Of a DNA stretch of 64,000 nt, positions 20,729 through 63,643 are shown one piece after another. The notes under the pieces are model-generated. The model was not told the origin of the DNA. It searched no databases and was given only the letters and a program-made list of their open reading frames with translations. The DNA is from a virus. The DNA lies in IMG/VR virus record IMGVR_UViG_3300047509_000103, positions 16,858-80,857 of that record; one strand, written 5' to 3'. Numbering within the stretch: position 1 is the first letter of the stretch; each line of letters begins with the position of its first letter. Made by a program: the position numbers and the translations under genes.

Positions 20729-21210
20729 TGTTCGACAAGATCGCTTGGCAGCGCCAATGGCGCGCTGAGAATAAAGAACGCAACACCGGATATCACATTG
20801 CCGCTTACAGGCGCGATCCGGAAAAGCACAAAGCAGCGCACAACAAATGGCGCGATGCGAACGTGCAAAAAGCGAATGACGCGACATCGCAATGGCGTGG
20901 CAGGAACAAGGAAAAACTGCTCGCTTACTCGCGCGACTACGCTGCTAGAAATAGAGCAAGCCGTGCCGCGAATCAAGCGAAGCGTCGCGCTTTGAAGCTA
21001 TTGGCAACACCGCTGTGGGCAGACCACGAGTTGATTGAACTCATCTATGCCGAGGCTGCGCATCGTGGCTTGGAAGTTGATCACGTGATACCGCTTCAAG
21101 GCAAGACTGTTTGTGGCTTGCACGTGCATACGAACATGCAATTGCTCAGTGCTGGCGAGAATTACAGCAAGCGCAACAAGTACCCGTATCCATCAAGGAT
21201 TCCACTATGA
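20728..21210 (+). CDS. HNH endonuclease with repeat-like basic N-terminus
   Basis: 160 residues. The first 95 are basic and Ala/Asn-rich, with repeated YRRDPEKHKAAHNKWR-type helices like those ahead of many phage HNH domains. The C-terminus has LEVDHVIPL, VCGLHV, NM and ENYSKRN, the conserved residues of an HNH fold. The same C-terminal module is found in the minus-strand protein at 59874-60494. It begins one base into the lipase stop and overlaps the lipoprotein gene. It lies about 1.3 kb upstream of the terminase genes, so it may be either a homing nuclease or a packaging helper. Confidence 0.85.
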   Translation: MFDKIAWQRQWRAENKERNTGYHIAAYRRDPEKHKAAHNKWRDANVQKANDATSQWRGRNKEKLLAYSRDYAARNRASRAANQAKRRALKLLATPLWADHELIELIYAEAAHRGLEVDHVIPLQGKTVCGLHVHTNMQLLSAGENYSKRNKYPYPSRIPL

Positions 21211-22508: not shown

Positions 22509-23066
22509 ATGGCAACCAAGCAGCGTAAACGCCGGGACGGCCATGTTCCGGCGAAAGGTCAGCAGGACGTCACCAAAGCTGCGCAGCCAAAGCGTAAGAA
22601 GCGCAAAGCAAAAGCCCCAAAGCCTAACGGTAGACCGTCTGACTACAGGCCGAGGTTTTGCAAGAAGGCGCAGGAAATGGCGCATGGAGGCGCAACCGAT
22701 CGCGAAATCGCGGAAAAGCTGGGGGTGCACGAAGTCACACTCTATCGCTGGCAGCACGAGCACCCAGAGTTTCGCAGTGCCATAAAGCTCGGGAAGGAGG
22801 CTGCAGACAAGCGCGTCGAGCAATCTCTCTACCGTCGCGCCATTGGCTACAGCCACGACGCCACGAAGATCATGCAGAACAACGGTGTCCCGGTGATCGT
22901 TCCGTACGTCGAGCACTTTCCGCCTGATCCGACATCAATGATCTTCTGGCTAAAGAACCGCAAGCCGAAGGATTGGCGCGACAAGATCGACCACGAGCAC
23001 GCTGGTGCGAATGGTGGACCGATTGAACTGACAGCGATCAGATTGGTGCCATTGGGGCGCGAGTGA
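22509..23066 (+). CDS. terminase small subunit
   Basis: 185 residues. A very basic N-terminus (KQRKRRDGH...PKRKKRKAKAPK) precedes a GRPSDYRPRFCKKAQEMAHGGATDREIAEKLGVHEVTLYRW helix-turn-helix (about 41-81). The C-terminal part has EHFPPDPTSMIFWLKNRKPKDWRDK, typical of small terminase proteins. It would bind the packaging start site and regulate the large subunit encoded four bases into its end. No pac or cos site was identified. Confidence 0.85.
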   Translation: MATKQRKRRDGHVPAKGQQDVTKAAQPKRKKRKAKAPKPNGRPSDYRPRFCKKAQEMAHGGATDREIAEKLGVHEVTLYRWQHEHPEFRSAIKLGKEAADKRVEQSLYRRAIGYSHDATKIMQNNGVPVIVPYVEHFPPDPTSMIFWLKNRKPKDWRDKIDHEHAGANGGPIELTAIRLVPLGRE

Positions 23067-24454
23067 ACAGCGATGCGGGTGTGTTGCGAATAGCGATTCC
23101 GGAGAAACTGATTCCGGTATTCGAGGGGCGCGCGGACGTGCGCGGCGCCTATGGCGGCCGCGGCTCTGCCAAGACCCGCAGTTTCGCGAAGATGGCAGCC
23201 GCATTCGGAATGCGGTATGGGCAAGCTGGTATCAAGGGTCAAATCCTGTGCGCCCGCCAGTACATGAATTCACTGGACGATTCCTCACTTGAAGAGGTCA
23301 AGCGGGCGATCGAAGAAGAGCCGTTTTTAGCGGCGTACTACGAGGTCGGTGAGAAATACATCTGCAGCCGCGACGGGAACATCAGTTTCGGGTTCGCTGG
23401 GTTGCACCTGAGCATCGATAGCATCAAGTCGAAGGGCCGCATCCTGTTGTGCTGGGTCGACGAAGCAGAGCCAGTGCTTGAATCGGCATGGAATACGCTG
23501 GAACCGACGCTGCGCGAAGAAGCCGACGGCTGGAATGCCGAGCTGTGGGTGACGTGGAATCCGAAGCGCAAGAGTGCCGCAGTCGAGAAGCGTTACCGCA
23601 ATAGCTCGGATCCACTGATCAAGATTGTCGAGCTGAACTGGCGCGACAACCCCAAGTTCCCTGGCAAGCTGGAGCGCCAGCGTGAACGAGATCTGGAAGG
23701 AAGTCCGGACGAGTACCCACACATCTGGGACGGCGCTTACCAGACGGTCGTCAAAGGCGCTTACTACGCGCAGCAGATTGCGGCCGCAAAAGCCAGCGGT
23801 CGAGTCAGCCGTGTGGCTGCCGATCCTTTGCTGACGTTTCGTGTCCACTGCGATATCGGCGGAACCGGAATCAATTCTGACGCCTTCGTGATGTGGGCTG
23901 ACCAGATTGTTGGTCGCGAAGTTCGGCTGCTGGACTATTACGAGGTCCAAGGCCAGCCGGCCGCTGCGCATGTATTGTGGCTACGCGAGCACGGTTACGT
24001 TCCAGGCAATACGACGATTGTGTTGCCGCACGACGGTGCCCAGGCTGACAAGGTTTTCGCAATCACGTATCAAGGCGCATTCCAGGCAGCTGGGTACGAC
24101 ACGATCGTTATCCCCAACATGGGCAAAGGTGCTGCGAAGCTACGCATCGAGGCTGGTCGCCGATTGTTTGGCGCAATGTGGTTCGACGCAGATGGCACCG
24201 AAGTTGGGTTGGACACGCTGGCGTGCTATCACGAGAAGATCGACGAGAAGCGCGACATCGGACTGGGACCGGAACACGACAGTGCATCGCACTGCGGTGA
24301 CTCCTTTGGTCTGATAGCGGTTGATTACGAGCTCAACAAGCCAAGTGGCACGCGTGTTGGCGGTAATAGTGACACCTACAACGCGGTCGCTCACTGGAAG
24401 CGCAAGCTGCGCCAGCGAAATGGAACCACTGGTCGAGGGGCAATGACGGCCTGA
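23063..24454 (+). CDS. terminase large subunit
   Basis: 463 residues from GTG 23063, overlapping the small-subunit stop. The packaging ATPase has Walker A GGRGSAKT (31-38) and Walker B ILLCWVDEAE (127-136). The C-terminal RNase H-like nuclease has D264 in HCDIGGTG, D324 in LPHDGAQ and a late HDSASHCGDSF. The order and length fit the PBSX/P22-like group. It drives DNA into the procapsid and cuts concatemers, acting at the portal encoded next. Confidence 0.95.
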   Translation: MNSDAGVLRIAIPEKLIPVFEGRADVRGAYGGRGSAKTRSFAKMAAAFGMRYGQAGIKGQILCARQYMNSLDDSSLEEVKRAIEEEPFLAAYYEVGEKYICSRDGNISFGFAGLHLSIDSIKSKGRILLCWVDEAEPVLESAWNTLEPTLREEADGWNAELWVTWNPKRKSAAVEKRYRNSSDPLIKIVELNWRDNPKFPGKLERQRERDLEGSPDEYPHIWDGAYQTVVKGAYYAQQIAAAKASGRVSRVAADPLLTFRVHCDIGGTGINSDAFVMWADQIVGREVRLLDYYEVQGQPAAAHVLWLREHGYVPGNTTIVLPHDGAQADKVFAITYQGAFQAAGYDTIVIPNMGKGAAKLRIEAGRRLFGAMWFDADGTEVGLDTLACYHEKIDEKRDIGLGPEHDSASHCGDSFGLIAVDYELNKPSGTRVGGNSDTYNAVAHWKRKLRQRNGTTGRGAMTA

Positions 24455-47815: not shown

Positions 47816-49564
47816 ATGGCACTCGATCCGAGCTACCTGAACGACATCAATGGCGACAGCGATAAGACGCAATCTGTCTACAAGCCGAAGCGGAATCTAT
47901 CTACTGCCGGCGTGCCATCTGTTGATAACGCATCGGCGAATCCAACCACTGAGGCGGGTAAATCGGTATGGGACAATTTCAGTCCAGGTGCAGCAACTGG
48001 GTTGAATATTAGGTCTTTCTCCAATGTGCAGGACGACACGCAGCGCGCGTCCGCTGCAGCACAAAACAAGGCTGATAACACTGCGATGTATGGCGATCCG
48101 GCAAAATACATTGCCGGGTCGAAACCGCCTGTAGACCTACGTCAACCAGCACCTTCCGTATTCAGCCCGGACGCTTCGCAACCGACCGTGCTTAACCCGC
48201 TTGGGCGAGTGACGACAGGCGTGCAGCCGCCCATCGTGCCGCCAGCTCCATCAGCACCTGCCAGAAGTCTCTCCGGATCGCCGCCGCCCGGCGCTGCTGG
48301 TGCGATGGTTGGTGCCATTCCTGCGGTGGCAACCGCTGGACCAATATCAAAGCCTGGCACTGCTGGTGCGACGGACAATGGCGATCCCGCCAACACTCCA
48401 GACATCACTTACGACCCGCAGAACCGAGGTTTGCCGAACACCACCGCGAGCATCCCCGATGCGAAAGCATTGGCTGCTGTGCGCGACAAGGCCATCAGTG
48501 ATTACCAGGCGCCGTCGACAGGCGCTCCGAAGTCGTTCGCTGATCGCGCAACGGCGTCTGGTGGTGTGAAGCAGGCGGACGGCTCCTACGCATTCAGCAA
48601 CATGCCGGCGCAGCCTGGATACAACGCTAACCTCGATTCGCTTGGCGACAACGCCAATGTCGTCAGCGCGCGGAACATGGCAAATCCAGGGCTCGGGACG
48701 AACGGCTACACCCCGACGACTGATCAAGGTGTCGGCTCGACGGCGTATCGAGGATTGACCAACGCCATCGCTGATGCGCGCAGCGACAACCAGAAAACGC
48801 AACGAGGCGCGCTGTCGGACATTTATTCGATGGCTAACCAAGACCCGCGTTCAGTGTCTGGAACCGCTGCGCGCAATGCGGCGATCGACCTCAAGAGCGA
48901 TCTTGAATCTGCTGGTCGATATGCGCACGGAAGAAACATCGCACAGGTACAGCAAGCGGCGATCGATCGGTATAGGAGCAGTATTGGTGCTGCTCCCGGG
49001 ATGCTGTCGGAAGGCATGCACGACGAGGCCGGCACGAATGACGAGGCGATGCGTGGCCTCACGTCACTCGGCACCGCAACGTTGAACAACGATGCGCGCG
49101 TGAACGCCGCGGAGGCGCACGCGAATGCAGTGATCCACGGCGCCGACCAGCGGCTTACTGGAACGCAGTACAACGCGGACCAGCGGTTGACAGGCACGCA
49201 AGACACCAACTCGGCACGTCTTGGCGTGGCTGGTACCGCTGCTGATGCAAGGGTTGCCGCTTCGGCCAATGCAACCAACCGCACGGCCGCATCCGTAGCG
49301 GCGAATGAAGCCGTTGTGGATGAGTACATCAAAAATCATCCGAGCACCACGCGAGAGGATGCGTACAAGCTGGCCAGGCTTCCCTACCCATCAGCATCTG
49401 TGCAGATGCAATCGAGAAACCTCTCGCAACCGGCGAGCGCGCCTCAATCAAGCGCGCAAACGCCTAGCGTTCCGGCGGGCATGAAGTCGTTCGCTGGTTA
49501 TTCATCGCGCGGCAATCCGGTGTTCCTTGACGCAAATGGCAACAAGCACGAGGCCGTTCAATAA
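47816..49564 (+). CDS. disordered internal virion protein
   Basis: 582 residues, Ala-, Pro-, Asn- and Asp-rich, with almost no hydrophobic core before residue 330. A helical stretch (AYRGLTNAIADARSDNQKTQRGALSDIYSMANQ) follows at about 305-340. A near-perfect tandem repeat ADQRLTGTQYN/ADQRLTGTQDT lies at about 442-462. The C-terminus ends with a small FAGYSSRGNPVFLDANGNKHEA unit. It directly precedes and overlaps the giant gene; probably an ejected or core protein. Confidence 0.65.
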   Translation: MALDPSYLNDINGDSDKTQSVYKPKRNLSTAGVPSVDNASANPTTEAGKSVWDNFSPGAATGLNIRSFSNVQDDTQRASAAAQNKADNTAMYGDPAKYIAGSKPPVDLRQPAPSVFSPDASQPTVLNPLGRVTTGVQPPIVPPAPSAPARSLSGSPPPGAAGAMVGAIPAVATAGPISKPGTAGATDNGDPANTPDITYDPQNRGLPNTTASIPDAKALAAVRDKAISDYQAPSTGAPKSFADRATASGGVKQADGSYAFSNMPAQPGYNANLDSLGDNANVVSARNMANPGLGTNGYTPTTDQGVGSTAYRGLTNAIADARSDNQKTQRGALSDIYSMANQDPRSVSGTAARNAAIDLKSDLESAGRYAHGRNIAQVQQAAIDRYRSSIGAAPGMLSEGMHDEAGTNDEAMRGLTSLGTATLNNDARVNAAEAHANAVIHGADQRLTGTQYNADQRLTGTQDTNSARLGVAGTAADARVAASANATNRTAASVAANEAVVDEYIKNHPSTTREDAYKLARLPYPSASVQMQSRNLSQPASAPQSSAQTPSVPAGMKSFAGYSSRGNPVFLDANGNKHEAVQ

Positions 49565-52500
49565 TGGATTTGAAACCCTACGATGGCGACGTACTGAGCG
49601 CACCGCCTGCGCCACAGGCTACGCTACAGCCATACGATGGTGATGTATCAGCGACGGCGCCCGCCCGCACGTTGACGCAGGGCGCCGATCAACCAGGGTT
49701 GATGAACGGCGCTGGGAATCTATGGCGAGGACTGAGCGATTCTGTCGGCAACATCGCGAGCAGCGCCAAGGGCGCGTTGGAAACTGGCGCCGGGCAAACC
49801 GTCCGTGGACTCGAAGATGTCGCCAGCCGCATTCCAGGCGCTGCGACGCCAGAACAGGCAAGCGAAACAGCAGCGGCGCTTGACAAGACACCACTGCGCG
49901 CACTCGCCCCAGCGGGGCTGTCGTTCAGCGACATCATCAATGCACCGAGGACGTTAAAGGCCGCCGGCGAAGCCGCGCAGGCCTCGACGACGCCGGAATT
50001 CAAGGAAGCCACGAGTAAGGGCATTCTTGATCCTGGCGGATTCACGCCGACAAACATCGCTAGCAAAGCGGTTAACACGGTCGCTGGCATGGCGGCTCCG
50101 ATGGCTTTGTCAATGGTACCTGGCATAGGTCAGGTAGCGGGCCCAGCAGCGTTCGCTTCCCAGGGCGAGGCGGCCGGCCGCGAAGCAGGCGAGCAGCAGG
50201 TCAAAGCGCTGACCGACGAACAGATTGCTGCGATTCCTGGTTACGAGGGGATGTCTCCTGCTGATGCCCGCGCAAAGCTATCTGATGATGTTGCAAACAG
50301 ACAGGCACTAGTGCAAGGCACGTTCGGTGGCGTACTCGGCGTAGTGGGAAAGATACCTGGCGTAGAGGCGCTTGGGGACGCGGCCGCGGGCACGCTGAGT
50401 AGGGTGTTGTCGAAACCGATTGCCAATCGCGTTGGCGCAGGCATTGGCGAAGCTGCTGGATTCGGCGGCATCAATGCGGCCGGGCAGGTTGTCGGCAACG
50501 TCACGAATCCGATTCCGACGGACACATTCGCGGGAGTGCCAGAGGCTGCGGCAAGCGGGTTGGCGCCAGGATTTGCGATGGGCGCACTGCGCGGACTTCA
50601 TGCGCCGGCAGAAACAAAACCCGGGAACACCAACGCCGACCTACTCAAGGCCGCGAATCCAGGTGCGCCTGATGTGCGTGCGCCAGGGCAATCGGAAGAC
50701 GCCCAGGCCGTCGTCGCACCAGGTTCTGGTACTGCACCACCACCGCCGGCGGCTCCTGCGCCACCCAATCCGATCGATCAGGAAATCATCAAGCAGCGCG
50801 CTGCGCCGACCGGCCCGATCGGCAAAGTCGTTGCCAACATGCAGACGACGGACGAAGCCGGTCCTATACCTGATGCTTCGCTCAACGTAGAGCTTGCCAA
50901 TTCCGCTCAGCCGCAAAACGACGCCAACGCGCCATTGCAACTGACGCACGACAACACGATCAAACTGGGCGGCCCGATTGCGCCAGCGGAGCCGTTCGGC
51001 GGCGCGGGCCTCGATGAGCCATTCCAGGGTGCTGACGCGCGCGCAGCCAGCGATGCTGTGCCGCCACAACCGCCGCCAGCAAGTAGCGAACTTGCGGTAC
51101 AGCCGCAAACCCCGCCACAGCCGCTACCGTTCGTGCACGCGCAGGACTTGCGCGAAATGGTTGACCAGCGGATCAGCGCATTGCACGACGCCTTGCACTC
51201 GCGCGACCGCCGTATGACACAAGAAGAGTTGAGCCAGTACCAGCAACTGCTGGCGAACTACGACCAGCCATACGAGTTGGCCGGCCTGATGGGCGTGTCG
51301 GTTGACCCGGCGACGATCGGCAAGACGAAGGCGGCTGGAAAAGATGCCGCCGTCGCGCCGAAAGCAGTGAACCCCGCGCCCGTTGGCGCCGGCGAAACGC
51401 AAGTCCAGGAAGCCCAGCGCACGCCGTTCGATCTTCCTGGCGCGGCGCAGCAACGCCAGTTTGTGGCAGACATGCAGGCGCATGGCGTGCCTGACGACGT
51501 CATCCAGCAGCACATGCCGCACGCGCCGAAAGACAGCGTGACCGGCTTCTATGACGCGCGCGCGGACAACATGAAGACGCAGACGGTGCAGCGCGCCATC
51601 GACCACGTCGGCAATACTGGCGAGCCGGCGCAGTACGTGTCCGGAGATATCTTCAATCTCGGCGGATTGAACAGTCACGTCGGCAACAAGGCCGAGGCGG
51701 CGAACGTGCACTACCGCGCCGTGTCTGAAATTCTCGCCGATGAACTTGGCAAGACTGGCGCCGACGTGATCCCCATGCGCACCGGTGGCGACGAGGTCGG
51801 TGCGCTCGTGGTGGGCAGCCATCCAGACGCGACGCGCCAGGCTGTTGCGCGTGCACAGCCACGTATTTCGGAGTACGCTAAACAGAATGGCCTGGATGCG
51901 ATACCGCATTCAAGGCGCCCAGGCGAGCAGGGCTTCGGCATGCACATTGGTGTTGCCGATATCAAGCCTGAGAGTACGGTAAAGGAAGTTCTCGACACCG
52001 CCGACAATGGCGTCAACATATCGAAGCATGGTGGAGACAATGTCGCACGAAGCACGGCTGGAAAGACTGGGGCTACTTCACCTGAAGGACAAACCGGAAG
52101 AGCTGTACCAGGCGTCGTTGAAAGCGGTGTCGGACGCGCACCTGAGAAACGTGCTCCGGGACGCCAAGCGGGAACAGGACAAGGCCAAAAGCCAGACGAA
52201 GGCGAAGTAGCCCTCGCCACACAACCGAAACCCAAGACGCCGCCGAAAGGTGGCGTTTCTGCTTCTGTAGGCACGATCACGCGTGCCGAGGATGGCACGC
52301 AAGCCGTTCACACCAGCGTTGGCCAGCGCAAATTCAACGACACCGACTACGATGTCGGGCTGCTCGGCTCATCGCAGAAAGACGGCACGGTCGTGTTGCA
52401 ACGTGGGCTTGACTACACCGTTCCGGACAAGCCTGAATACTCGCGCATCAAGGGCCTGGACGTGCGGCCGCTGTACGCGGAGCACGAAGCCGTTGAGCGT

Positions 52501-55500
52501 GACACAGAGGATCGCGGCACCAACTACAGCAAGTCGCACTACGATCACGCGATTCCTGCTGAGCACAAGATGCTGCTCGAAAAACTTGGCCTCAAGGCGG
52601 GTACGCCAGAGGCCGACGAAGCTATCCGACAGTACGATGCTTTCAGCGACGAACAGGTCAAGCAAGCCGCTGCGGTCAAGAACCCGAAGGTTGCACCGGA
52701 TCTGCTTGAGCTCCCCTACGAGCATCCACACAATGCCGAGCAACGCCGTCTGCTGGCCGAGACGGAAACCAACAAGACGAACGTCGCCAAGCCGAATGTC
52801 GGTGATGCCGACGCACATGCCGATCTACGCCGCGCGCTGCAACGCATCGCGAGTGGCGACGCACCGGATCGCGTACTGGCTGGCGAAAACCGCGACACCA
52901 TCAACGCAGTCGCCAAAGCGCTCGGGAAGGAATACAGCCCGAAGGCCAGCGATGCGAAAGTCATCGACAACCTTGGCAAGCTCGCGATCGCCGATCGGAT
53001 GAGCGCGGCGCGTGCCGCCCACGGCAAACTGCCTGGTGGCGCTGTCGACGAGGCCGCGCGCGCGTCTGCCGCGCACCCCGAAGCAGAGAAGCCAGCCACG
53101 CCAGCGCAGCAGGAAGCTGGCAATCACAAGATGGGGCACGTCGACGTGCACGGCATGGACGTCACCATCGAAGTGCCAAAGGGCGGCCTGCGCAAGGGCA
53201 CGAATAAAGCCGGCGTCCCGTGGGAGCGCGAACAGCGTGCGGGGCTGATCGATCGCGCCGGGCAGCGCGCAGTGACGGTTGCCGGCGAGAAGTTCAGCAG
53301 CGAGCCGGACGCGTTGCGGGCTTTGCATGCCGAGATTGATAAACAGAAGGGCGACGACGCGTCGGCAAAATACACCATTGAAATTGGCGGCAAACAGTAC
53401 ACCGCGAAAGACAAGGCAGAGGAAGCAATTCGCAGCACGCTCGGCGATCACGAGCCGTTTGAGGCGACGATTGGCGACAAGACGTTCATCCGCCGCTATG
53501 ACGCCGCAAAGGAAATCGCGCATGCGCTGAACAGCGAGAACGGCGAAGTGGCGAACAAGCGCGTCGGAACCCTGTATGGGTTTCCGCTTGTGGCAGACGC
53601 TGACGCACACCAGCGCCACGGTGTGCAAGTATTCACCACGTCGTTGAGCGTGCTTGGCAAGGACGGCCAGGTTCTACTGTCGCGTGAGACAGAGGAACGG
53701 CCGACGGCCGAAACAACGCCGCAGGCGCTTAGGGGCGCTCTATCAGGGCTCGCGGCAGATCTTGCTGACAACTACGCGGCGAAGCGTGAGGCAGATGTAA
53801 ACCGCAACATCGAGAACGCCAAGGCCGATATTCCAGACATCAAAGAGCGGCTTAGCAAGCCGTTTGAGTACGCTCAGGAGCTGGCAGACAAGCGCGCACG
53901 CCTGCACGCGGTGGTTCAGGAACTGGCGGCAAGTTCAGAATCCAACAGCAGACGCACGCCGGACGAGCCGGCGCCACCGGCAGCGCCTGGATCTTTCTCC
54001 AAGAGTGCCGGCGAAGGTGGCGGCGCTAAAACGACCGAGCTGCGCGCCGCGATCGCCGAAGCCACGAAGAACTGGGGCGACAACGCTCCTGACTGGCGCG
54101 TCGTCGACACGCCCGAGCAACTGCCAGCAGCAGCGAAGCGCGACCCGGGTTACACGAAGGCGCGCGGCTACTACGACGGCAAGACCGCATATGTAGTGGC
54201 GAGCAAGCACGCCGATGTCGAGGGAGCACTGCGCACGCTAGCGCACGAGGCTGTTGGTCACCATGGCATTGAGAACATCGTCAACGACCATGTCAAGGGC
54301 GGCTGGGACCAGCTCGCCGGCGACATCGATCGGTTGCGCACGCAAGGCCTCGGCAGCGAGAAGATGCGTGCGGTACTGGCCGACGTCGAGAAGCGCTACC
54401 CAGGCGCCGACAAGACCACCTTTGCGAAAGAAACATTGGCCGTGATGGCCGAGCGCGGCATCAAGAACGGTCTGCTGGCGCGCGCGGTGGCCGCGGTACG
54501 CGCGTTCGTCCGCAAGCTGCTTCCAAGCCTGAAGTTCGGCGAAGCGGATCTGGGTAAGCTGCTGCAGCACAGTGACGAGTATCTGAATGACGCCGAGGGC
54601 CAGCGCGCGCGGCAGGAAACGGTAGGCGCGATGGCGTTCGACAAGGCGCCGCCCACCGACTCGCCGGAATTCAAGAAATTCTTCGGCAGCAGCAAGGTCG
54701 TCGACAAGGCTGGTGTGCCGCGCGTGGTGTTCCATGGCACGGGTGAAGACTTTTCAGTGTTCGACCCTGGCAAGAAAGGCGCTGCTACATCACACACGAC
54801 GGCGCCGCTTGGTCACTTTTTCACCGAAGACCGCGCGCGCGCCGCGCGGTACGCGGAGAACGCCAGCGGCGGCCGCCCAGCCGACGAGCGCATCGTCGAC
54901 GCGTATTTGAACGTCCGCAAACCCTACGAGATGTCGCTCAAGGAGGCACAGGAAATTGATTCGCCCGAAGACGCACACGCGCTGCAGGAGCGTCTGCGCG
55001 CCGAGGGCTACGACGGCGTGCACATCAAGGAGCCGGGCACGTGGATCGCTTTCGACAACAATCAGATAAAAAGCGCTTCGGAGAACCGCGGAACGTTTGA
55101 CCCGAATCACCCAGACATCACGTACCGCCGCACCGATCGCACCGCCGACAACACGCACGATTCTGTCGCGTCCGCGCGTCGCGAGGCTGGTAACGTACTC
55201 GGCAGTGGCAGCCTTGAGCGGTTGGAAAAGGCCGGCGTGCAATTCATCACGCGCGCCGATCTGGATAGCATGGACTTGGCAGCAGGATCGGCGCGCTTTG
55301 CCGATGGCTCGTCGGTGAGTGGCCGTCCACTGACCGAATCCGAGAAGGATGGTGTCCGTGGCGTAACAATTGATGGCACGCCGCATATCGTCGCCGACAA
55401 TATCCCGAAGGGGGATGTCGCCAAGACCATCGTGCACGAGGTTGTACACGCGAACATCGAGCAGGTGCTCGGCGGTACGCAGGGCGTGCGAGAGATCGCC

Positions 55501-58500
55501 AACATTATCCATCGCCTTGCCGGGCTGAAGGACAAGGCTGGCAACCTTCTGCATCCCGAACTGCGCGCTGCGGTGGACGAAATACCAGCCGACACGTCGC
55601 CGAACAAGTATCACGAGGAAATCATCGCGCATGCCGGCGAGTTCCTGCACGACGATAGCCTGTGGCGTCAAATCAAAGACAAGGTTCTGACGAACCTGGC
55701 CAAGCTCGGCATCGGTCGCAAGTGGGCAGACACCAACGAAGCGCTGATCCGCGGCATCGTGCGCGACACGATGCGGGATTACCAGAATCCAAAGGCGGTA
55801 GCAGGTCGCGAAGTCCCGGCCGGAAAAACTGCTGGCACCGCGGGCGAATCGCCCATTTCTGATCAGATCAAGACGAATGTGGGATCGCCAATTTCTGATG
55901 AAACTCCGGCGCCGAAACCTGGTGCCGAGCCGATCGCGACTGGCGACCGCGTGCGCGTCACGACCGGCATTGCCGCCGGCAGGGAAGGCACGGTCATTCG
56001 CCGCGATGCCGACGCTACGCGCATCCGTCTGGACAATGGCGAAGAAGTCGGCTTGTCGAACAAGGTGGTCGAGCGCGCCGAAGTGAAGCAAGCCGGTGAG
56101 CCGCGCGGCGCCGACACGGACACCACCGGCATCAAGAACGCCAAAACAGCGGAATGGGCTGCGGCGCACGGTCAAGAGCACGTCCGAGCCGAGGTTCATG
56201 GCCGAGAAGCCGCTCAGGCCGAGGCGCGTGATCGCCTTGCGCGCGATCCAGCCGCAGGCCAGAAGCTCGCTACTGAGCTGTCAGAGAACCCGCGCCGTGC
56301 CGTCACTGACACGGACGCAGCGCTGATGAACCTGCACTTGGGCGATGTCCGGCGGGCGCACGTGGCGTCTGTGGACAAGGTCAACGCCATGGCTGACTCG
56401 AAAGACGAGCAAGCCAAGGTCCGGGCGCAGCTGGAAATGGAGGGTATGGATGCGCAGTTGGGCACGGCCGAGCGTGCCGGTGCAGTGGTGCGCGAGCGCT
56501 GGCACTCGCTTGGCATGGCGTTGCAGGACGAAGTTACTCCGGAGGGTTTGTTCGCCCGCTGGAAGAATTACGTCCAGGCGCGCGGCGGCGGCAAGCCGCT
56601 GTCAGCTGAGGCTCAGGGCAAGATCAAGGAACTGACGGACAAGATCGCCAAGCTGGAGCAGCAGATCTCCAGCAAGCGCGGACGCGGCACGACCGCGCGC
56701 GATCCGAAGGAGCGCTACGCAGCGATCCGGGCCAAACTGGAAGAAATCGCCAAGCGGCAGGATACGGCTGCCGCCTACGCACGCGACAATGGAGTCAGCT
56801 TCGCAGAGGCGATAAAACGGTTCCAGAGCGACGCGCCGAAGCCAACCGCAGAGCAGCTCGCGAAAAACGCCAAGGCTGAATCAGCCATCGAGCGGGAAAT
56901 GAAGCAGGGTGGGTCGAAGCAGGACGACGTTGCTTTTGCCCGCAGCAGGGACGACGAAGAGCGCAATCTGGTACGCCAGATGGCCAGGGCGTTGGTCGAG
57001 GGTGGCGAGACGGATGCGCAGGAACTGGTCAATCGCATCCATGAGGATGTCGGCGCGACGGCCAAGCTATCGCGCGACATGGTGCGCAACATCATCGCTG
57101 GCGTGGTGAAGGGTGCGGCTCCAACAAAGCCAGAACTGACGGTGCGGATGGAAGCTATCCGCAAGGAACTTCGCGCCGAGTACGCCGCCAACAAGCAGGA
57201 CAGCCGCCGCGATACGACGCGTCAGAAAGCGCTGCGCAAGCAGATGGGCGACATCGAGCGCCGCATCAAACAGGGTGACTTCTCGAAGGTAAAGCGGGAA
57301 GCGCCGAAGTACAGCGAGGACACCTTCGATCTGCAGCGGCAGGTGAACATTGCCAAGCGTGGACTGGAGAAGGCCGCGACCACCGCCGAGAACGCCAACA
57401 AGAGTCTTCCTGGGCGGATCGCTGACGGTGCGATCAAGATGCAGCGTCTTTTCATTCTGTCCCACCTGTCGGCCTTGCAGAAATTGCCTCTGGCCGCTGT
57501 GACCAAGATGGCGATTACGCCGCTTGAGGAAGCCATCGGCTCTGCACTTCGCCGCATTCCCGGTTTGTCCAGGATTGCCGAGATGGCCCCGCGCCACGGA
57601 CATGGCTTCACGCCGGCGGCCGAGGCGGAAGGCGTGCGCGGTATCCGCATGGCCGGCAAGGGTGCTGGGCAGCTATTCCGCCAAGGCTACGACTGGCTGG
57701 ACGACGAGTACGGATCGAAGTGGAAGGGTGCCGATGAGTGGTCGAACCTGTCAGGTCGCGTCCATTCGATGATGAAGGAGCCGGCAAAGCTCAATGAGTT
57801 CTACCGCAGCTTCTACCTGCGTAGCCAGCACGCGCGCGATCAGGCCATACGCGACGGCATGACGCCGACGCGGGCCGACGCCTACATCGACCAGCCATCG
57901 GTAAAATACATGATCGGCGAAGCGGCTTATGCCGACGCGCAGGAAGCCATCATGCAAGGCAAGAATGCGTTGGTTGACGCGATCGACAGCGCGGTGCGCA
58001 GCATTGGTCACTCCAGCGCCGGCGGAAAAGTGGTAGAGCGACTGTTCAACATCCTCGTTCCGATCAAGAAGGTTCCAGGCAATATCGTCAAGGAGGCTAC
58101 GAGCTACGCCGGTGGTGGAATCAAGGCGCTACCGAAGCTGATCCAGGCCGTACGCAAGGGCGTCGATAGTCTGACGCCGGAGCAGGCCGACTACGTGATG
58201 AAGAACCTGAAAAGGCAGTCCGTTGGCGTGGTGCTCATGGGGATCGGTTACACGCTCGGCCCGGCGATTCTTGGCGGTATTGAGAACATCTTCAACGACG
58301 ACCGCGACGAATACAAGAAGCGCATGGCCAGTGGCAAGCCGCTGACCGGAACCGCCAAGGTAAACGGTGTGTACCTGAATCCGAACTTCTTTCATGCGCC
58401 GGCAACATCCGCGATCCAGGCCGGCGCGCAGTTTCGGAAGATGCTCGATGACGAAGGCCGCAAGGCAACCTTCGAGAAAGGACTTGGCGACATGCTGAAG

Positions 58501-58845
58501 ATCGCTGGCAGCTACGCCATCAACGAAGGCCCGAGCATCGGCTCGCTGTACAAGACCTACAAGTACGCGCACTCCGGCAACAAGACCAACGAGATCATCG
58601 GCCACACGCTACAAGGCATGGTTGTTCCCGGGTTGGCGACGGATTTGGCAAAGGGAATGGACTACGACAAGGCGAAGGACCAGAACCGCGACAACCCGAC
58701 ATGGCGCAATCTTGTTGACGTGCCTGGCGGCCAATTGCACGCGCGCACGCGCTATCCGCAGTCGGTGTTGCAAGGGGTCCAGGAAGGCATACCTTTCGCC
58801 CGTAACCTTGTTCCGGATCGTAAGCAGCCTGCGAAGTCGCCGTAA
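49564..58845 (+). CDS. giant polyvalent virion protein with GGDEF-, ART- and peptidase-like domains
   Basis: 3,093 residues. In order: two YDGDV repeats; Gly-zipper hydrophobic helices (about 100-330); a GGDEF-like domain (656-825) with SVTGFYDARADN, GDIFNLGGLN, TGGDEV (740-745) and ADNGVNISKHGGDNV; a unit with HEAVE (974-978); beta-rich repeats; a zinc-peptidase-like HEAVGHH (1561-1567); an ADP-ribosyltransferase-like domain (about 1700-1845; VFHGTGEDFSVFD, GHFFTEDRARAARYA, EGYDGVHI, FDNNQIKSA); a second HEVVH (1958-1962); a KOW-like unit (about 2125-2180); coiled coil; and a C-terminal region (about 2700-2960) like large polyvalent-protein domains. Such proteins are carried in the virion and enter the cell with DNA. 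Enzyme activities are inferred from motifs. Confidence 0.9.
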   Translation: MDLKPYDGDVLSAPPAPQATLQPYDGDVSATAPARTLTQGADQPGLMNGAGNLWRGLSDSVGNIASSAKGALETGAGQTVRGLEDVASRIPGAATPEQASETAAALDKTPLRALAPAGLSFSDIINAPRTLKAAGEAAQASTTPEFKEATSKGILDPGGFTPTNIASKAVNTVAGMAAPMALSMVPGIGQVAGPAAFASQGEAAGREAGEQQVKALTDEQIAAIPGYEGMSPADARAKLSDDVANRQALVQGTFGGVLGVVGKIPGVEALGDAAAGTLSRVLSKPIANRVGAGIGEAAGFGGINAAGQVVGNVTNPIPTDTFAGVPEAAASGLAPGFAMGALRGLHAPAETKPGNTNADLLKAANPGAPDVRAPGQSEDAQAVVAPGSGTAPPPPAAPAPPNPIDQEIIKQRAAPTGPIGKVVANMQTTDEAGPIPDASLNVELANSAQPQNDANAPLQLTHDNTIKLGGPIAPAEPFGGAGLDEPFQGADARAASDAVPPQPPPASSELAVQPQTPPQPLPFVHAQDLREMVDQRISALHDALHSRDRRMTQEELSQYQQLLANYDQPYELAGLMGVSVDPATIGKTKAAGKDAAVAPKAVNPAPVGAGETQVQEAQRTPFDLPGAAQQRQFVADMQAHGVPDDVIQQHMPHAPKDSVTGFYDARADNMKTQTVQRAIDHVGNTGEPAQYVSGDIFNLGGLNSHVGNKAEAANVHYRAVSEILADELGKTGADVIPMRTGGDEVGALVVGSHPDATRQAVARAQPRISEYAKQNGLDAIPHSRRPGEQGFGMHIGVADIKPESTVKEVLDTADNGVNISKHGGDNVARSTAGKTGATSPEGQTGRAVPGVVESGVGRAPEKRAPGRQAGTGQGQKPDEGEVALATQPKPKTPPKGGVSASVGTITRAEDGTQAVHTSVGQRKFNDTDYDVGLLGSSQKDGTVVLQRGLDYTVPDKPEYSRIKGLDVRPLYAEHEAVERDTEDRGTNYSKSHYDHAIPAEHKMLLEKLGLKAGTPEADEAIRQYDAFSDEQVKQAAAVKNPKVAPDLLELPYEHPHNAEQRRLLAETETNKTNVAKPNVGDADAHADLRRALQRIASGDAPDRVLAGENRDTINAVAKALGKEYSPKASDAKVIDNLGKLAIADRMSAARAAHGKLPGGAVDEAARASAAHPEAEKPATPAQQEAGNHKMGHVDVHGMDVTIEVPKGGLRKGTNKAGVPWEREQRAGLIDRAGQRAVTVAGEKFSSEPDALRALHAEIDKQKGDDASAKYTIEIGGKQYTAKDKAEEAIRSTLGDHEPFEATIGDKTFIRRYDAAKEIAHALNSENGEVANKRVGTLYGFPLVADADAHQRHGVQVFTTSLSVLGKDGQVLLSRETEERPTAETTPQALRGALSGLAADLADNYAAKREADVNRNIENAKADIPDIKERLSKPFEYAQELADKRARLHAVVQELAASSESNSRRTPDEPAPPAAPGSFSKSAGEGGGAKTTELRAAIAEATKNWGDNAPDWRVVDTPEQLPAAAKRDPGYTKARGYYDGKTAYVVASKHADVEGALRTLAHEAVGHHGIENIVNDHVKGGWDQLAGDIDRLRTQGLGSEKMRAVLADVEKRYPGADKTTFAKETLAVMAERGIKNGLLARAVAAVRAFVRKLLPSLKFGEADLGKLLQHSDEYLNDAEGQRARQETVGAMAFDKAPPTDSPEFKKFFGSSKVVDKAGVPRVVFHGTGEDFSVFDPGKKGAATSHTTAPLGHFFTEDRARAARYAENASGGRPADERIVDAYLNVRKPYEMSLKEAQEIDSPEDAHALQERLRAEGYDGVHIKEPGTWIAFDNNQIKSASENRGTFDPNHPDITYRRTDRTADNTHDSVASARREAGNVLGSGSLERLEKAGVQFITRADLDSMDLAAGSARFADGSSVSGRPLTESEKDGVRGVTIDGTPHIVADNIPKGDVAKTIVHEVVHANIEQVLGGTQGVREIANIIHRLAGLKDKAGNLLHPELRAAVDEIPADTSPNKYHEEIIAHAGEFLHDDSLWRQIKDKVLTNLAKLGIGRKWADTNEALIRGIVRDTMRDYQNPKAVAGREVPAGKTAGTAGESPISDQIKTNVGSPISDETPAPKPGAEPIATGDRVRVTTGIAAGREGTVIRRDADATRIRLDNGEEVGLSNKVVERAEVKQAGEPRGADTDTTGIKNAKTAEWAAAHGQEHVRAEVHGREAAQAEARDRLARDPAAGQKLATELSENPRRAVTDTDAALMNLHLGDVRRAHVASVDKVNAMADSKDEQAKVRAQLEMEGMDAQLGTAERAGAVVRERWHSLGMALQDEVTPEGLFARWKNYVQARGGGKPLSAEAQGKIKELTDKIAKLEQQISSKRGRGTTARDPKERYAAIRAKLEEIAKRQDTAAAYARDNGVSFAEAIKRFQSDAPKPTAEQLAKNAKAESAIEREMKQGGSKQDDVAFARSRDDEERNLVRQMARALVEGGETDAQELVNRIHEDVGATAKLSRDMVRNIIAGVVKGAAPTKPELTVRMEAIRKELRAEYAANKQDSRRDTTRQKALRKQMGDIERRIKQGDFSKVKREAPKYSEDTFDLQRQVNIAKRGLEKAATTAENANKSLPGRIADGAIKMQRLFILSHLSALQKLPLAAVTKMAITPLEEAIGSALRRIPGLSRIAEMAPRHGHGFTPAAEAEGVRGIRMAGKGAGQLFRQGYDWLDDEYGSKWKGADEWSNLSGRVHSMMKEPAKLNEFYRSFYLRSQHARDQAIRDGMTPTRADAYIDQPSVKYMIGEAAYADAQEAIMQGKNALVDAIDSAVRSIGHSSAGGKVVERLFNILVPIKKVPGNIVKEATSYAGGGIKALPKLIQAVRKGVDSLTPEQADYVMKNLKRQSVGVVLMGIGYTLGPAILGGIENIFNDDRDEYKKRMASGKPLTGTAKVNGVYLNPNFFHAPATSAIQAGAQFRKMLDDEGRKATFEKGLGDMLKIAGSYAINEGPSIGSLYKTYKYAHSGNKTNEIIGHTLQGMVVPGLATDLAKGMDYDKAKDQNRDNPTWRNLVDVPGGQLHARTRYPQSVLQGVQEGIPFARNLVPDRKQPAKSP

Positions 58846-59873: not shown

Positions 59874-60494
59874 CTAAAGTAGTTCTGGTTTCCATGCGTT
59901 GCGCTTCACGTGGTTTTCGTCATGCACTATGACACGCATGTTGTTCTCTACGTGGAGCCCGCAGACCAGCGGATGGATTAGTGGAATGACGTGGTCGACC
60001 TCGTGCCGCGCGCCAGTCTGTTGTGAAAGTTCGCGCGCCAGTACATAGAGCGCCCGTATAGCTTTGCTGTCCGCCCAAGGTGTTTTCTTTGCTTGGTTTC
60101 GTCTCTGCCGACGGCCATCCGCATCAAGTTTGGATCGCTCTTGCCGCTGCGCCCATCCGTTAAACCGCGTTGAATTTTCTTGTTGTATCTGCTGCCTGAC
60201 GTCCAAGTTTTGAATTGCTTCTACCACACGATACAGATCAGCCAACGTGGCGGTTGCTGACGCAATGCGAATTCTCTTTGGGCGGTCATCTACAACGCGT
60301 GAGTCGGCCATCGTGAGATAGCCAGGCATTACGGTGTACCAATGCTTTGAACGGCGATCCCAGTAGCACCACTTTGGGATCTGACGCTGATCGATGTGCG
60401 CCGGCAGCGTGCTGTTGATTTTGCGTGGCCTACCGCGCCCGGCACCAAGCAGTTTTTCAGGCGGTTCGCTCCGTAAAACTGACGGTTGTTTCAT
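59874..60494 (-). CDS. HNH endonuclease with integrase-like N-terminal domain
   Basis: 206 residues from ATG 60494 (a TTG at 60536 would add 14). Residues 19-55 (GRGRPRK...IPKWCYWDRRSKHWYTV) and 74-98 (RIRIASATATLADLYRVVEAI) match residues 2-38 and 46-70 of the integrase at 60958-62091; by hand count 20 of 37 and 13 of 25 positions are identical. RGRP is an AT-hook-like core. The C-terminus (about 137-206) is an HNH module (HEVDHVIPL, VCGLHV, ENHVKRN) shared with the gene at 20728. The gene lies immediately left of attP, so the borrowed domain may direct cutting to att DNA. Confidence 0.85.
   Translation of the reverse strand: MKQPSVLRSEPPEKLLGAGRGRPRKINSTLPAHIDQRQIPKWCYWDRRSKHWYTVMPGYLTMADSRVVDDRPKRIRIASATATLADLYRVVEAIQNLDVRQQIQQENSTRFNGWAQRQERSKLDADGRRQRRNQAKKTPWADSKAIRALYVLARELSQQTGARHEVDHVIPLIHPLVCGLHVENNMRVIVHDENHVKRNAWKPELL
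60471..60479 (+). promoter_or_regulatory. possible integrase arm site, left outer
   Basis: CCGTAAAAC, the first of four copies of CCGTAAAA in the same orientation around the attP core. It lies inside the start of the HNH gene. Arm-site function is inferred from repetition and position. Confidence 0.35.
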
Positions 60495-60522
60495 GCGTTT
60501 ATATCCATGAAGATTGAAATGT

Positions 60523-60531
60523 CCGTAAAAT
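60523..60531 (+). promoter_or_regulatory. possible integrase arm site, left inner
   Basis: CCGTAAAAT, second of four CCGTAAAA copies, about 45 bases left of the tRNA-derived core. Confidence 0.35.
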
Positions 60532-60575
60532 GGCAAGTTTTCAATGTATTGAAATTATAATCTTTTTTGACTTAC

Positions 60576-60638
60576 CGCAAGGGACTTAAAATCCCTCGGC
60601 CCTAATCGGCCATGCCGGTTCGAGTCCGGCCCCGGGCA
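60576..60638 (+). other. attP: attP core: 3' part of a tRNA-Leu(TAA) gene
   Basis: The sequence matches the 3' part of tRNA-Leu with anticodon TAA: anticodon stem-loop AGGGA-CTTAAAA-TCCCT (60580-60596, anticodon 60587-60589), long variable arm, T-arm GCCGG-TTCGAGT-CCGGC (60614-60630), acceptor strand CCCGGGC and discriminator A (60631-60638). The 5' acceptor strand and D-arm are missing, so it is not a tRNA gene. This is the usual form of a phage attP that restores the host tRNA on integration. The flanking integrase fits. Confidence 0.85.
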
Positions 60639-60687
60639 TTCACAATCAAAGGGTTAGCGTGGCGCAACGCCGCGCGCTGCAACTGAC

Positions 60688-60711
60688 CCGTAAAAATCAC
60701 CGTAAAAATCA
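60688..60711 (+). repeat. tandem 12-bp repeat, candidate integrase arm sites (right)
   Basis: Two perfect adjacent copies of CCGTAAAAATCA (60688-60699 and 60700-60711), 50 bases right of the attP core. Shorter matches (CCGTAAAA) lie at 60471 and 60523. Direct repeats on both sides of a core are typical of tyrosine-integrase arm sites. Confidence 0.6.
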
Positions 60712-60720
60712 CTTCTTCGG

Positions 60721-60948
60721 TCAGGGCTTGCTTTCCTCGCCATCCCGGTCCGTGAATTCCTGACCTATTTGTCCCGGCATGCGGCACCATTCGATCCATT
60801 CTCCAGTTTTCACCCATTGCCGCTGGATGACCCATTCGCAACGTTCGAGATCCAGAGAGACGCGCAGGTTTGCGAATACGGTCGGGCCATAGAGTTTGTC
60901 AATAATGACAACATCGTCCGGTCCGATTTCAATTATGTGCTCGGTCAT
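60721..60948 (-). CDS. small protein between attP and integrase
   Basis: 75 residues: MTEHIIEIGPDDVVIIDKLYGPTVFANLRVSLDLERCEWVIQRQWVKTGEWIEWCRMPGQ, an acidic, beta-rich small protein with several Trp. It lies ten bases after the integrase stop and next to the arm-type repeats. No family recognised; it could be an accessory of the integration module. Confidence 0.6.
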   Translation of the reverse strand: MTEHIIEIGPDDVVIIDKLYGPTVFANLRVSLDLERCEWVIQRQWVKTGEWIEWCRMPGQIGQEFTDRDGEESKP

Positions 60949-60957
60949 ATCACCATC

Positions 60958-62091
60958 TCACTCTCCAGCCGGGTTCACAAGTGGAACAGTAAAATCGTAT
61001 ACATCCATCATCGCATCAGTGACATGCCCGCTTGCTTCCTTCCGATCGGCGCGTGTGCCGACTGTGTCGGTGACACCACGGCGCTTGAGCGGATGCAACG
61101 AGAAGCGTTGCTCGGCAGTGATAACACCCTCAGCGATAGCCAGCTTGATCGCATGCTGCCACGCGCTGTCGAACGTACCCTTGCGCAATGCTTTGCCATC
61201 AATGCCCACCAGCAGTGGCCTGTCTTCGGCGCGGATCGGCACCGGCGTGCGGCAACGCGCCCAGGTGGATTCACGCAGTGCGATCGCTGCATCCCACGCG
61301 GCGCGTAGTCGCGGCGACCAGCGCACGCAATTGTCACGGCTGCCCTTGCGCCGATTCGTCACCACGCCGTCGGTGGTGGCGTTCGCATCAGTGAGCGTCA
61401 GCACCTCGATGCCGCGCAGCCGGCACATGAAGGCAAACTCCATTGCCAGCCACAGGTACGGTGCGACGGCGCCGGCGCGGCGCAGCGTGACGCCAGCGCG
61501 CTGCTGGAAGAACTGCAGCACCGCCATCACGGCGACAGGCTCTGGCAGGATCCGCCGCTTGCGTTCCTTGGCCTGGCGCACGCCCTTGCACGGGTTGTGG
61601 TTGCACTTGCCGTTGCGCACGCCCCAGGCGAGCGACCGGCGCAGGTAGCGCAGCAGGTGGTTCGCCTTGGTCGGCGTGGTCTTCGCGATTGAATTGACCA
61701 GTACCTGCATCATTGGCACCGACATGCGCGCCACGTTCAGCGAGGTCAACGTGCCGGCCTTGGTCTTGAATGCGGTGGCGATCGCACGCTGTTTTTCGTA
61801 GCCCGCGCGCGTGCTCGGCGCGAGCTCGCGGAATTCGACATCGTCGTGAAACGCGGCGAGCACGTAGCCCAAGCAGGTGTGATCAACGCCGGCAATGCTT
61901 TCCAGGATGGAGTGCAGATCGGCGAGCGTTGCTTCCGGACCAGCTATGCGCTGCCGGCGCGGCTTCGGATAGGTGTGGATTGTGTACCAGACGCGATCAC
62001 GCCCGTCCCAATAGCAGCGCTTCGGCAGCCGCCGCGGATCCACGCGGGCCGGCATGCTCGAATCCAGAACGCGCGGGCGGCCGCGGCTCAA
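60958..62091 (-). CDS. int: tyrosine recombinase integrase
   Basis: 377 residues from TTG 62091, which overlaps the upstream stop (TTGA); TTG 62178 would add 29 residues. The N-terminal 70 residues (SRGRPR...LPKRCYWDGRDRVWYTI; ATLADLHSILESI) form the arm-binding-like domain shared with the HNH protein. A SAM-like core-binding domain follows, then the catalytic domain with Arg in CRLRGIEVLTL, HPLKRRGVTDT (H-x-x-R box), SGHVTDAMMDVYDF (H and candidate nucleophile Tyr). It integrates the phage at attP/attB in tRNA-Leu. Confidence 0.9.
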   Translation of the reverse strand: MSRGRPRVLDSSMPARVDPRRLPKRCYWDGRDRVWYTIHTYPKPRRQRIAGPEATLADLHSILESIAGVDHTCLGYVLAAFHDDVEFRELAPSTRAGYEKQRAIATAFKTKAGTLTSLNVARMSVPMMQVLVNSIAKTTPTKANHLLRYLRRSLAWGVRNGKCNHNPCKGVRQAKERKRRILPEPVAVMAVLQFFQQRAGVTLRRAGAVAPYLWLAMEFAFMCRLRGIEVLTLTDANATTDGVVTNRRKGSRDNCVRWSPRLRAAWDAAIALRESTWARCRTPVPIRAEDRPLLVGIDGKALRKGTFDSAWQHAIKLAIAEGVITAEQRFSLHPLKRRGVTDTVGTRADRKEASGHVTDAMMDVYDFTVPLVNPAGE

Positions 62092-62300
62092 CGGCAAATT
62101 TCCGGTGAGTACGCCTCGGCGCTGCCGGTCACCACGACGCGCCCGCCCGCCTGGTTTATCAGATCGATTGTCGTCCAAGGTTTCCCCGCCTTGCCGATGA
62201 ACACCGTGATGCCCTGCTTGCGAAGGTTGCGCACCACGTCGCCGGCGCGTTCAAGGCCGGTGATGCTGCACAACTCTTCGAATGGGACGAGCGCGGTCAT
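62088..62300 (-). CDS. excisionase-like DUF4224-type protein
   Basis: 70 residues from ATG 62300. MTALVPFEELCSITGLERAGDVVRNLRKQGITVFIGKAGKPWTTIDLINQAGG has the winged-helix pattern of short proteins (DUF4224 type) encoded directly upstream of phage integrases, where they are thought to control directionality or transcription. It overlaps the integrase TTG by four bases. An upstream ATG at 62324 is possible. Confidence 0.7.
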   Translation of the reverse strand: MTALVPFEELCSITGLERAGDVVRNLRKQGITVFIGKAGKPWTTIDLINQAGGRVVVTGSAEAYSPEICR

Positions 62301-62317
62301 AGCAGGGAATTGGATGC

Positions 62318-63643
62318 TCAGCAAGGCTCGGAAGTGGAAGGTGGGGTAGATCCATTCGTCACGAGTTCACAACCCGCCTTAGCCAGATCGACCACCCGAC
62401 ACGGTATTGTGATGCCGCCAAGCTTCGGATCGCAGCGATCCACATTGCACGGCCGGTTGTGCGTGTTGCACCAGTACCGTATCCCCTGATTCGCCGATAG
62501 CGCGCTTGGATTCTTGATCGGCCACAGTTGAAACGCTGTCGGCGTGCATTGGCATCGCGCAGGAATCGACGTAGCAAGTGGCAGTCGCACCACACGCAGA
62601 CAGGACGTGCAGCAATACCAGCGGCCATCCGTCGTCGCAGCCTGAGCCGATAGCGCGGCTTGGAGGGCGGTGCGCAAGAACACATCGTTGCAGTAAACTT
62701 CATCAAGATCATCGGCCGCTGCGTTGTAAGCGATGGCCGCACGGTCTACCATGTCATCCGTCACCACACGATCTACCGTGGCAGGGCAGTATGGCTTCAA
62801 CTTTGGATCAGCGGTGTGCGCAACTGTGCCGCCTTCGCGCAAAAATCGCGCATCAGCGTCATCCTGCGATTTGTCTTCAGGTTCCAAAAGCACTCTATTC
62901 GATACGGCCGTGGTGCTTAGGTAGTGCTCGCAAAGTGCGGCTACGTTGTAGGCGTCAGTCCGCCCGATAACTAGCTCTTGTCCGCCTTTGTCACGCACGA
63001 GCAAAAATCGCTCAAGAATGCGCTCAACTTGGTCGCGCGTCAGTTCACTCACTCCAACTACTGGCGAACTGTCAATTGCTGGCGGATTAGTAGTTGCGGC
63101 TTTGATGCGCTCGAATCTTCCGTCCAGCATTTCAATGTCCGCGCGAACGAAACACTTGCCATCTTCGGCGCGGTAAACGTAAGCAGGTTGCATCGTCTTT
63201 TCGATAAAGCAGCGCGTCTCAATTTTGTAGACGCCGCCGGTTTTTTTGTGGCGCACAAAATCGCCGGGAGCGAACTCGTTGTAGCCAGTTAGCAATACCG
63301 CCGGTTCTGTTTCCCATTCGATAGTAAGGCCGAATGATTCAAGCGCCTTACCCATGCAAACGTACTGCGCATCGGCTTGCTGCATGGACTGATCGTTGTA
63401 GGCGGTCACGGCCTTATCCAAATCTGCGCGACTCACCATCCATTCGTCGGCGTCCGGCCCATCGGTCTTTGGGGCGGACGGAGGTTCACCTGCGTAAGCG
63501 CACGGCCAGGGCACGCCACAGACGACGCAGCAGCCATGCAGCTTACCGTTCGCCGGATCATGTTCACTACCACAGCAGGCGCGGTGCGCTATCAGTTGCG
63601 CTAGTCGCTCGGCGCTGACAATCGGCTGGAATGCGTCGCTCAT
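62318..63643 (-). CDS. patchwork protein with several Cys-rich segments
   Basis: 441 residues from ATG 63643, overlapping the upstream stop (ATGA). It is another mosaic: a CCGSEHD...GCCVVCGVPWPC zinc-like segment at the start and an FVRHKKTGGVYKI strand pair (SH3-like, about 120-150). LTRDQVERILERF and TDDMVDRAAIAYNAA...LRTALQAALSA modules common in phage mosaics follow, and a C-terminal WYCCTSC...CQC...CNTHNRPCNVDRC block. Function unknown; probably a lysogeny-arm or early accessory gene. Confidence 0.65.
   Translation of the reverse strand: MSDAFQPIVSAERLAQLIAHRACCGSEHDPANGKLHGCCVVCGVPWPCAYAGEPPSAPKTDGPDADEWMVSRADLDKAVTAYNDQSMQQADAQYVCMGKALESFGLTIEWETEPAVLLTGYNEFAPGDFVRHKKTGGVYKIETRCFIEKTMQPAYVYRAEDGKCFVRADIEMLDGRFERIKAATTNPPAIDSSPVVGVSELTRDQVERILERFLLVRDKGGQELVIGRTDAYNVAALCEHYLSTTAVSNRVLLEPEDKSQDDADARFLREGGTVAHTADPKLKPYCPATVDRVVTDDMVDRAAIAYNAAADDLDEVYCNDVFLRTALQAALSAQAATTDGRWYCCTSCLRVVRLPLATSIPARCQCTPTAFQLWPIKNPSALSANQGIRYWCNTHNRPCNVDRCDPKLGGITIPCRVVDLAKAGCELVTNGSTPPSTSEPC

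Follow-up and report, generated by a model that had tools for sequence, protein, structure and literature searches.

The HNH endonuclease gene beside the phage attachment site (attP) in this viral genome is almost certainly a chimera of an HNH nuclease and the arm-binding domain of a tyrosine integrase, and the comparisons described below suggest that its product is probably a cutter aimed at the attachment sites that the integrase recognizes. The window, which is the whole stretch of 64,000 nucleotides that was analyzed, covers the final 64 kb of a virus record of 80,857 bp. The minus-strand genes of interest follow each other in the order xis, int, a 75-aa open reading frame (ORF), the attP region and the HNH gene (Table 1). 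The integrase was identified by its PHROG matches (phrog_14425, E = 3.4e-56; phrog_1 integrase, E = 6.6e-20) and by alignment, and is missed by the Pfam Phage_integrase model. The 75-aa ORF (60721-60948) is without relatives in Pfam or PHROGs. It was probably inserted at a later stage, since the arm-type sites directly follow the 3' end of int, without an intervening ORF of this kind, in four relatives (loci L133-L136). The structural genes are separated from the integration module by 9.3 kb that encode a giant protein of 3093 aa (49564-58845, plus strand). The phage genome also includes a transposase-family gene (13397-14518, plus strand; phrog_506, E = 6e-62) with a neighbour encoding 517 aa (14515-16068, plus strand). 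A search for the host by means of the tRNA-Leu sequence gave no match in 398 Xanthomonadales genomes.

Table 1. Features of the integration module and the chimeric HNH gene. Positions are those of the window.
Feature	Position	Strand	Remarks
Chimeric HNH protein	59874..60536	-	220 aa in the longest frame, TTG-initiated; likely ATG at 60494, giving 206 aa; phrog_26577 and endonuclease VII matches
Integrase-type arm-binding domain of the HNH protein (residues 34-112)	60201..60437	-	BLASTP, profile and model
HNH nuclease domain (residues ~140-220)	59877..60119	-	PHROG matches; D181, H182, N199 and N208 invariant among viral relatives
Tyrosine integrase (int)	60958..62178	-	Longest frame; likely TTG start at 62097; PHROG matches and alignment
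N-terminal arm-binding domain of the integrase (residues 32-99)	61880..62085	-	BLASTP with the HNH protein
Excisionase-like gene xis	62088..62324	-	Overlaps the int start; phrog_1266 excisionase, E = 3.7e-14
75-aa ORF	60721..60948	-	Function unassigned; between int and the P' arms
attP core region	60576..60639	+	3' half of a tRNA-Leu gene; anticodon loop TTAAAAT; core identity GGGACTTAAAATCCCTC at 60581-60597
Arm-type site P1	60471..60478	+	CCGTAAAA; within the HNH coding sequence
Arm-type site P2	60523..60530	+	CCGTAAAA; just upstream of the likely HNH start codon
Arm-type site P'1	60688..60695	+	CCGTAAAA
Arm-type site P'2	60700..60707	+	CCGTAAAA; 12 bp from P'1

The HNH protein and the integrase share an N-terminal domain

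When the two proteins were compared by BLASTP, residues 34-112 of the HNH protein aligned with residues 32-99 of the integrase, with 34 of the 79 positions being identical (43%, E = 8e-19). The match is judged to be far beyond chance because a profile built from integrase N-termini only retrieved the HNH protein at E = 3.9e-19 among 25,277 frames. The blocks RGRPR, PK.CYWD.R, WYT and ATLADL all fall inside the alignment, and the identity of 20/37 that had previously been counted by hand agrees with it. Both searches thus bear out the original prediction that the HNH gene and int, with attP between them, begin with the same domain. The version in the HNH protein differs from that in the integrase by a loop that is about 11 aa longer. 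Of the 18 positions with a conservation of 90% or more among 45 integrases, 16 are kept in the HNH protein and 13 in the cognate integrase, which argues for continued constraint on the domain.

For fold prediction with AlphaFold, the N-termini of the HNH protein and the integrase were modelled on their own and not as full-length proteins. Both models consist of three strands followed by a helix (mean pLDDT 72 and 76), and the predicted folds thus have the same beta-beta-beta-alpha order. In the HNH protein the predicted beta-beta-beta-alpha unit has an RGRPR tail. The PDB matches that Foldseek returned for the integrase model included the arm domain of lambda Int on P'2 DNA (2wcc, rank 3, E = 0.72) and the AP2 domains 3igm and 6sy0, and the HNH model also matched 3igm; none of these matches was significant.

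The C-terminal half of the HNH protein matches phrog_26577 (E = 1.1e-20) and also endonuclease VII (phrog_1035). Of the catalytic residues, D181, H182 and N199 are shared by all 80 viral relatives and N208 by 77 out of 77, and to judge from this alignment they are intact. All 220 codons are open, with a coding-like GC content by codon position (63/43/57%). Close relatives of the whole protein were absent from IMG/VR, plasmids yielded matches to the HNH half only, and defence-system libraries gave no match. A second HNH gene (20728-21210, plus strand; 160 aa), whose product has 43% identity with the nuclease half of the chimera, is located about 1.3 kb upstream of the gene for the small terminase subunit. 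We also considered a role in packaging, as for HK97 gp74, but this is unlikely for the chimera as the terminase gene (22509-24454) is about 35 kb away and is adjoined by the other HNH gene.

Outside the HNH gene the domain was found only in integrases

The original prediction had left room for the domain being a generic unit, and in the collections searched this turned out not to be the case. Among 50,697 GenBank phage records, which were searched with E-values up to 10, there were 10 credible matches, all of which are integrase loci; the eleventh match was noise (E = 2). In IMG/VR, the domain is followed by an integrase body at 77 of 79 loci, the remaining two being cut by a contig end. The bacterial searches covered about 770 genomes in total. 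In the 397 Xanthomonadaceae genomes among these we found 38 N-terminal matches, 36 of them in integrase-sized frames (380-542 aa), and in a class-wide genome sample the domain occurred in integrase-sized frames only. Two short carriers of 62 and 249 aa were considered as non-integrase cases and rejected, as they represent an IS-disrupted and a frameshifted integrase. Hence, in GenBank phages, IMG/VR and the bacterial genomes, all copies of the domain outside the HNH gene belong to intact or decayed integrases. Conversely, none of the 80 viral relatives of the HNH half has an integrase-type domain. Other phages in which an HNH protein and int share this domain, a search for which had been proposed originally, were not encountered in any of these three collections. 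The fusion, which is known from one instance on one metagenomic contig, is accordingly unique within the collections searched, bearing in mind that pattern-based scans can miss distant cases.

The HNH gene overlies the arm-type sites of attP

The repeat CCGTAAAA occurs in four copies on the same strand, all of them around the tRNA-Leu core, and nowhere else in the 80,857-bp record, while 0.84 copies would be expected per 64 kb. The two left-arm sites overlap the HNH gene, the site at 60471 being inside it and the site at 60523 being positioned just upstream of the ATG. The attP core region shares 22 identical bp with the tRNA-Leu(TAA) gene in L133. Moreover, the arms of a prophage that is integrated in tRNA-Leu(TAA) (record G765, locus L303) are arranged like those of the present attP, with distances of 54 versus 52 bp between P1 and P2, 107 versus 107 bp between the core and P'1, and 12 versus 12 bp between P'1 and P'2. 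The sole spacing that differs appreciably is that between P2 and the core (47 bp in the prophage versus 58 bp here). Because of this common layout, the assignment of the arms can be considered solid on comparative grounds.

This prophage of 18,571 bp has tail and baseplate genes within only about 18 kb, and no head or terminase gene was recognized among the larger ORFs that were scanned. It could thus represent a remnant or a tail-like element, and near its right end there is a complete tRNA-Leu(CAA) gene.

The domain belongs to an integrase subclade that is associated with one arm repeat

Phylogenetic analysis with IQ-TREE placed the domain of the HNH protein inside a single integrase subclade that is marked by the CYWD motif (support 99/97), and this placement was retained when the cognate integrase was left out (97/85). 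A sister relationship between the HNH domain and the cognate integrase, as a duplication inside this phage would produce, was suggested by FastTree (0.838) but is at best tentative in IQ-TREE (90/62; AU p = 0.435), both branches being long; that of the HNH domain amounts to 1.24 changes per column.

All five members of the CYWD subclade for which there is sequence beyond int have CCGTAAAA (TTTTACGG) repeats adjoining a tRNA gene, an association for which we claim no p-value since the members are related and not independent. In four of them the repeats form a 12-bp-spaced pair directly 3' of the int stop codon, and in L132 they form a 54-bp pair. Outside the subclade, a tandem CCGTAAAA pair was found in L127 only. 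The 12-bp-spaced repeats of other integrase groups include TTTTCCCG, TTTTTCCG, TTTTACCG, TTTTGCCG and ACGTAACA, and CGGGAAAA is the repeat of another integrase subclade. Such a co-segregation of subtype and repeat is what would be expected if the N-terminal domain reads the arms, where the arm specificity of the integrases is itself deduced from the repeats. If so, the HNH protein is predicted to read CCGTAAAA or a close variant of it, and we consider it reasonably likely that the protein binds the arm repeats. The long branch and the longer loop of its domain may reflect a changed specificity. We infer, with good support, that the HNH protein is targeted to attP or att hybrids, because its domain is homologous to that of the integrase, has the same predicted fold, is otherwise confined to integrases and belongs to a subtype that is tied to CCGTAAAA arms. 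The targeting that had been proposed originally therefore stands as a prediction, and stimulation of recombination, destruction of competing attachment sites and homing, the outcomes envisaged with it, are candidate consequences.

Several features of the integrase family itself were also observed. Tandem pairs of arm repeats with a 12-bp spacing, frequently located directly behind the int stop codon, are present at L127, L005, L093, L100, L103, L104, L113, L114, L122, L125, L145 and other loci. The repeat sequence varies with the N-terminal subtype (TTTTACGG, TTTTCCCG, TTTTTCCG, TTTTACCG, TTTTGCCG, ACGTAACA), and the specificity code of the arm domain may be readable from such pairs of subtype and repeat. 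The integrase gene adjoins the 12-bp pair at L133-L136, whereas at L132/L293 (G764) it is situated across attP, where its 3' end overlaps P1 of the 54-bp pair. The position of int with respect to the arms thus seems to have switched between these two sets of loci.

Possible functions of the chimeric protein

An HNH gene that is free-standing and encodes a separate DNA-binding domain is typical of homing endonucleases (PMC10448857, PMC2248197). The reading that we prefer, albeit tentatively, is that the chimera is a homing-type element directed to the arm repeats. A free-standing HNH endonuclease would have captured its arm-binding domain from a tyrosine integrase that belongs to the CCGTAAAA subclade, and would thereby have replaced or gained its targeting module. 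Guided by the captured domain, the nuclease would reach arm-type repeats at att sites, and its HNH domain would cut the DNA near the bound repeats. The target would be a related, co-resident phage or prophage whose attP has the same arms but which lacks the HNH gene, and the cut would be made beside this attP. Repair or recombination would then copy the HNH gene, with flanking att and int DNA, into the cut relative, or the rival would be lost. The arm repeats would be an ideal conserved homing target because every relative in the integrase subclade must keep them, and the position of the HNH gene against P1 fits a homing gene at its own target. It is possible, if somewhat doubtful, that any relative with the same arm code would have its integration module either invaded by homing or destroyed. 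The main difficulty for any model that involves cutting is that the phage's own attP has intact arm sites to which the protein would bind as well, and such models therefore need self-protection by a separated cleavage site. The own attP could be spared if the HNH gene, by its location against P1, interrupts the cutting position. Against homing there also count the single instance on one metagenomic contig and the result that no sister phage lacking the HNH gene, as a homing polymorphism would entail, was found in IMG/VR. The suggestion that the HNH gene might displace an integrase found no support, int being intact here and the relatives with the same attP carrying int and no HNH gene nearby.

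Four other explanations have to be weighed against an att-directed homing nuclease. It is rather unlikely that the gene is ordinary HNH cargo in a non-essential gap beside attP, its position reflecting where phages tolerate extra genes and its N-terminal domain providing loose generic DNA affinity or an altered specificity. HNH genes are indeed common in phages, this genome has a second one, and the N-terminus of the chimera has diverged, as its loop and its long branch indicate. However, the domain was found in no other cargo gene of any collection searched, 16 of the 18 residues conserved in integrases are kept, and the gene overlies the arm sites themselves. Alternatively, the protein could act against rivals in the manner of Odn of phage ICP1, cutting the att sites of competing prophages or satellites that have the same arms without gene conversion and so blocking their excision, integration or survival. 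The pairing of arm domain and arm repeat parallels the covariation of the Odn domain with iterons (PMC8263062), and the same arms are indeed present in a tRNA-Leu(TAA) prophage. We nonetheless regard this as unlikely, because self-sparing would be needed at an attP with four perfect arm sites and nothing directly indicates that such rivals occur in the same host.

A regulator or accessory factor would bind P1 and P2 to repress its own gene or to compete with the integrase at the left arm, and this competition would tune integration versus excision, with nuclease activity being secondary. The likely start codon at 60494 is positioned between P1 and P2, and autoregulation of integrase genes is common where the promoter overlaps the att arms (PMC2951348). 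This explanation is quite improbable, as no promoter for the HNH gene passed a consensus scan and the HNH catalytic residues, which a mere binding factor would not need, are fully kept. Finally, a decaying relic or an assembly artefact, in other words a functionless chance fusion, might be suspected from a single instance on a metagenomic contig, but is highly improbable given the open and coding-like frame, the conserved residues that persist in both halves, and an N-terminus that is not an assembly duplicate because it is merely 43% identical to int.

Comparison with known systems

No description of an att-cutting HNH protein with an integrase domain was found in the literature that we searched. 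The view that no system of this design had been described is nevertheless too strong, as the AP2-HNH endonucleases and Odn (PMC8263062) follow the same principle with different domains. What is already known is the combination of HNH with a DNA-binding domain (PMC10448857, PMC2248197) and that of a nuclease with an initiator-derived domain, as in Odn. What was not found in the collections or the literature searched is an HNH nuclease with an integrase arm domain on attP.

The chimera is composed of parts that each have a known source. Its N-terminal domain is of the type found in the tyrosine integrases of phrog_14425/phrog_1 (Smp131, LPPA56, D14A, UFJF_PfPro), with which it shares 16 of 18 residues, but unlike these integrases it has no core-binding and catalytic integrase domains. 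Its C-terminal ~80 residues, including all invariant catalytic positions, are held in common with the phrog_26577 HNH/endonuclease VII-like nucleases, whose 80 viral relatives, unlike the chimera, are without the integrase-type N-terminal domain. The AP2-HNH or HNN-AP2 homing endonucleases (IPA-HNH in ICP1; phages Xop411, Xp10 and OP1) likewise combine a free-standing phage HNH nuclease with a separate DNA-binding domain, and the beta-beta-beta-alpha order predicted here would be of the AP2/integrase-arm type. In IPA-HNH, however, the HNH domain is N-terminal and the AP2 domain C-terminal (PMC10448857), whereas in the present chimera the binding domain is N-terminal and has no Pfam AP2 match. 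Also unlike the AP2-HNH proteins, the chimera has a domain that is homologous to that of the same phage's integrase, and its gene lies on the attP arm sites.

Odn (Gp88) of the Vibrio phage ICP1 joins a homing-endonuclease-type nuclease to the RepA_N DNA-binding domain of its target, and this domain covaries with the iterons that are bound (PMC8263062). As in Odn, the DNA-binding domain of the chimera has been borrowed from a protein of a mobile element, in this case an integration protein. Odn differs in that a T5orf172 nuclease with a RepA_N domain is aimed at satellite origins, and in that the predicted target repeats of the chimera are also present in its own genome, namely as the four CCGTAAAA sites at its own attP. 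If the proposed function is correct, related temperate phages would compete over attP and this contest would drive the diversification of arm sequences, which would help to explain the distinct 12-bp-spaced arm repeats of the integrase subclades. Along with replication origins and conserved genes, attachment sites would then be among the targets that nucleases reach through a stolen address domain.
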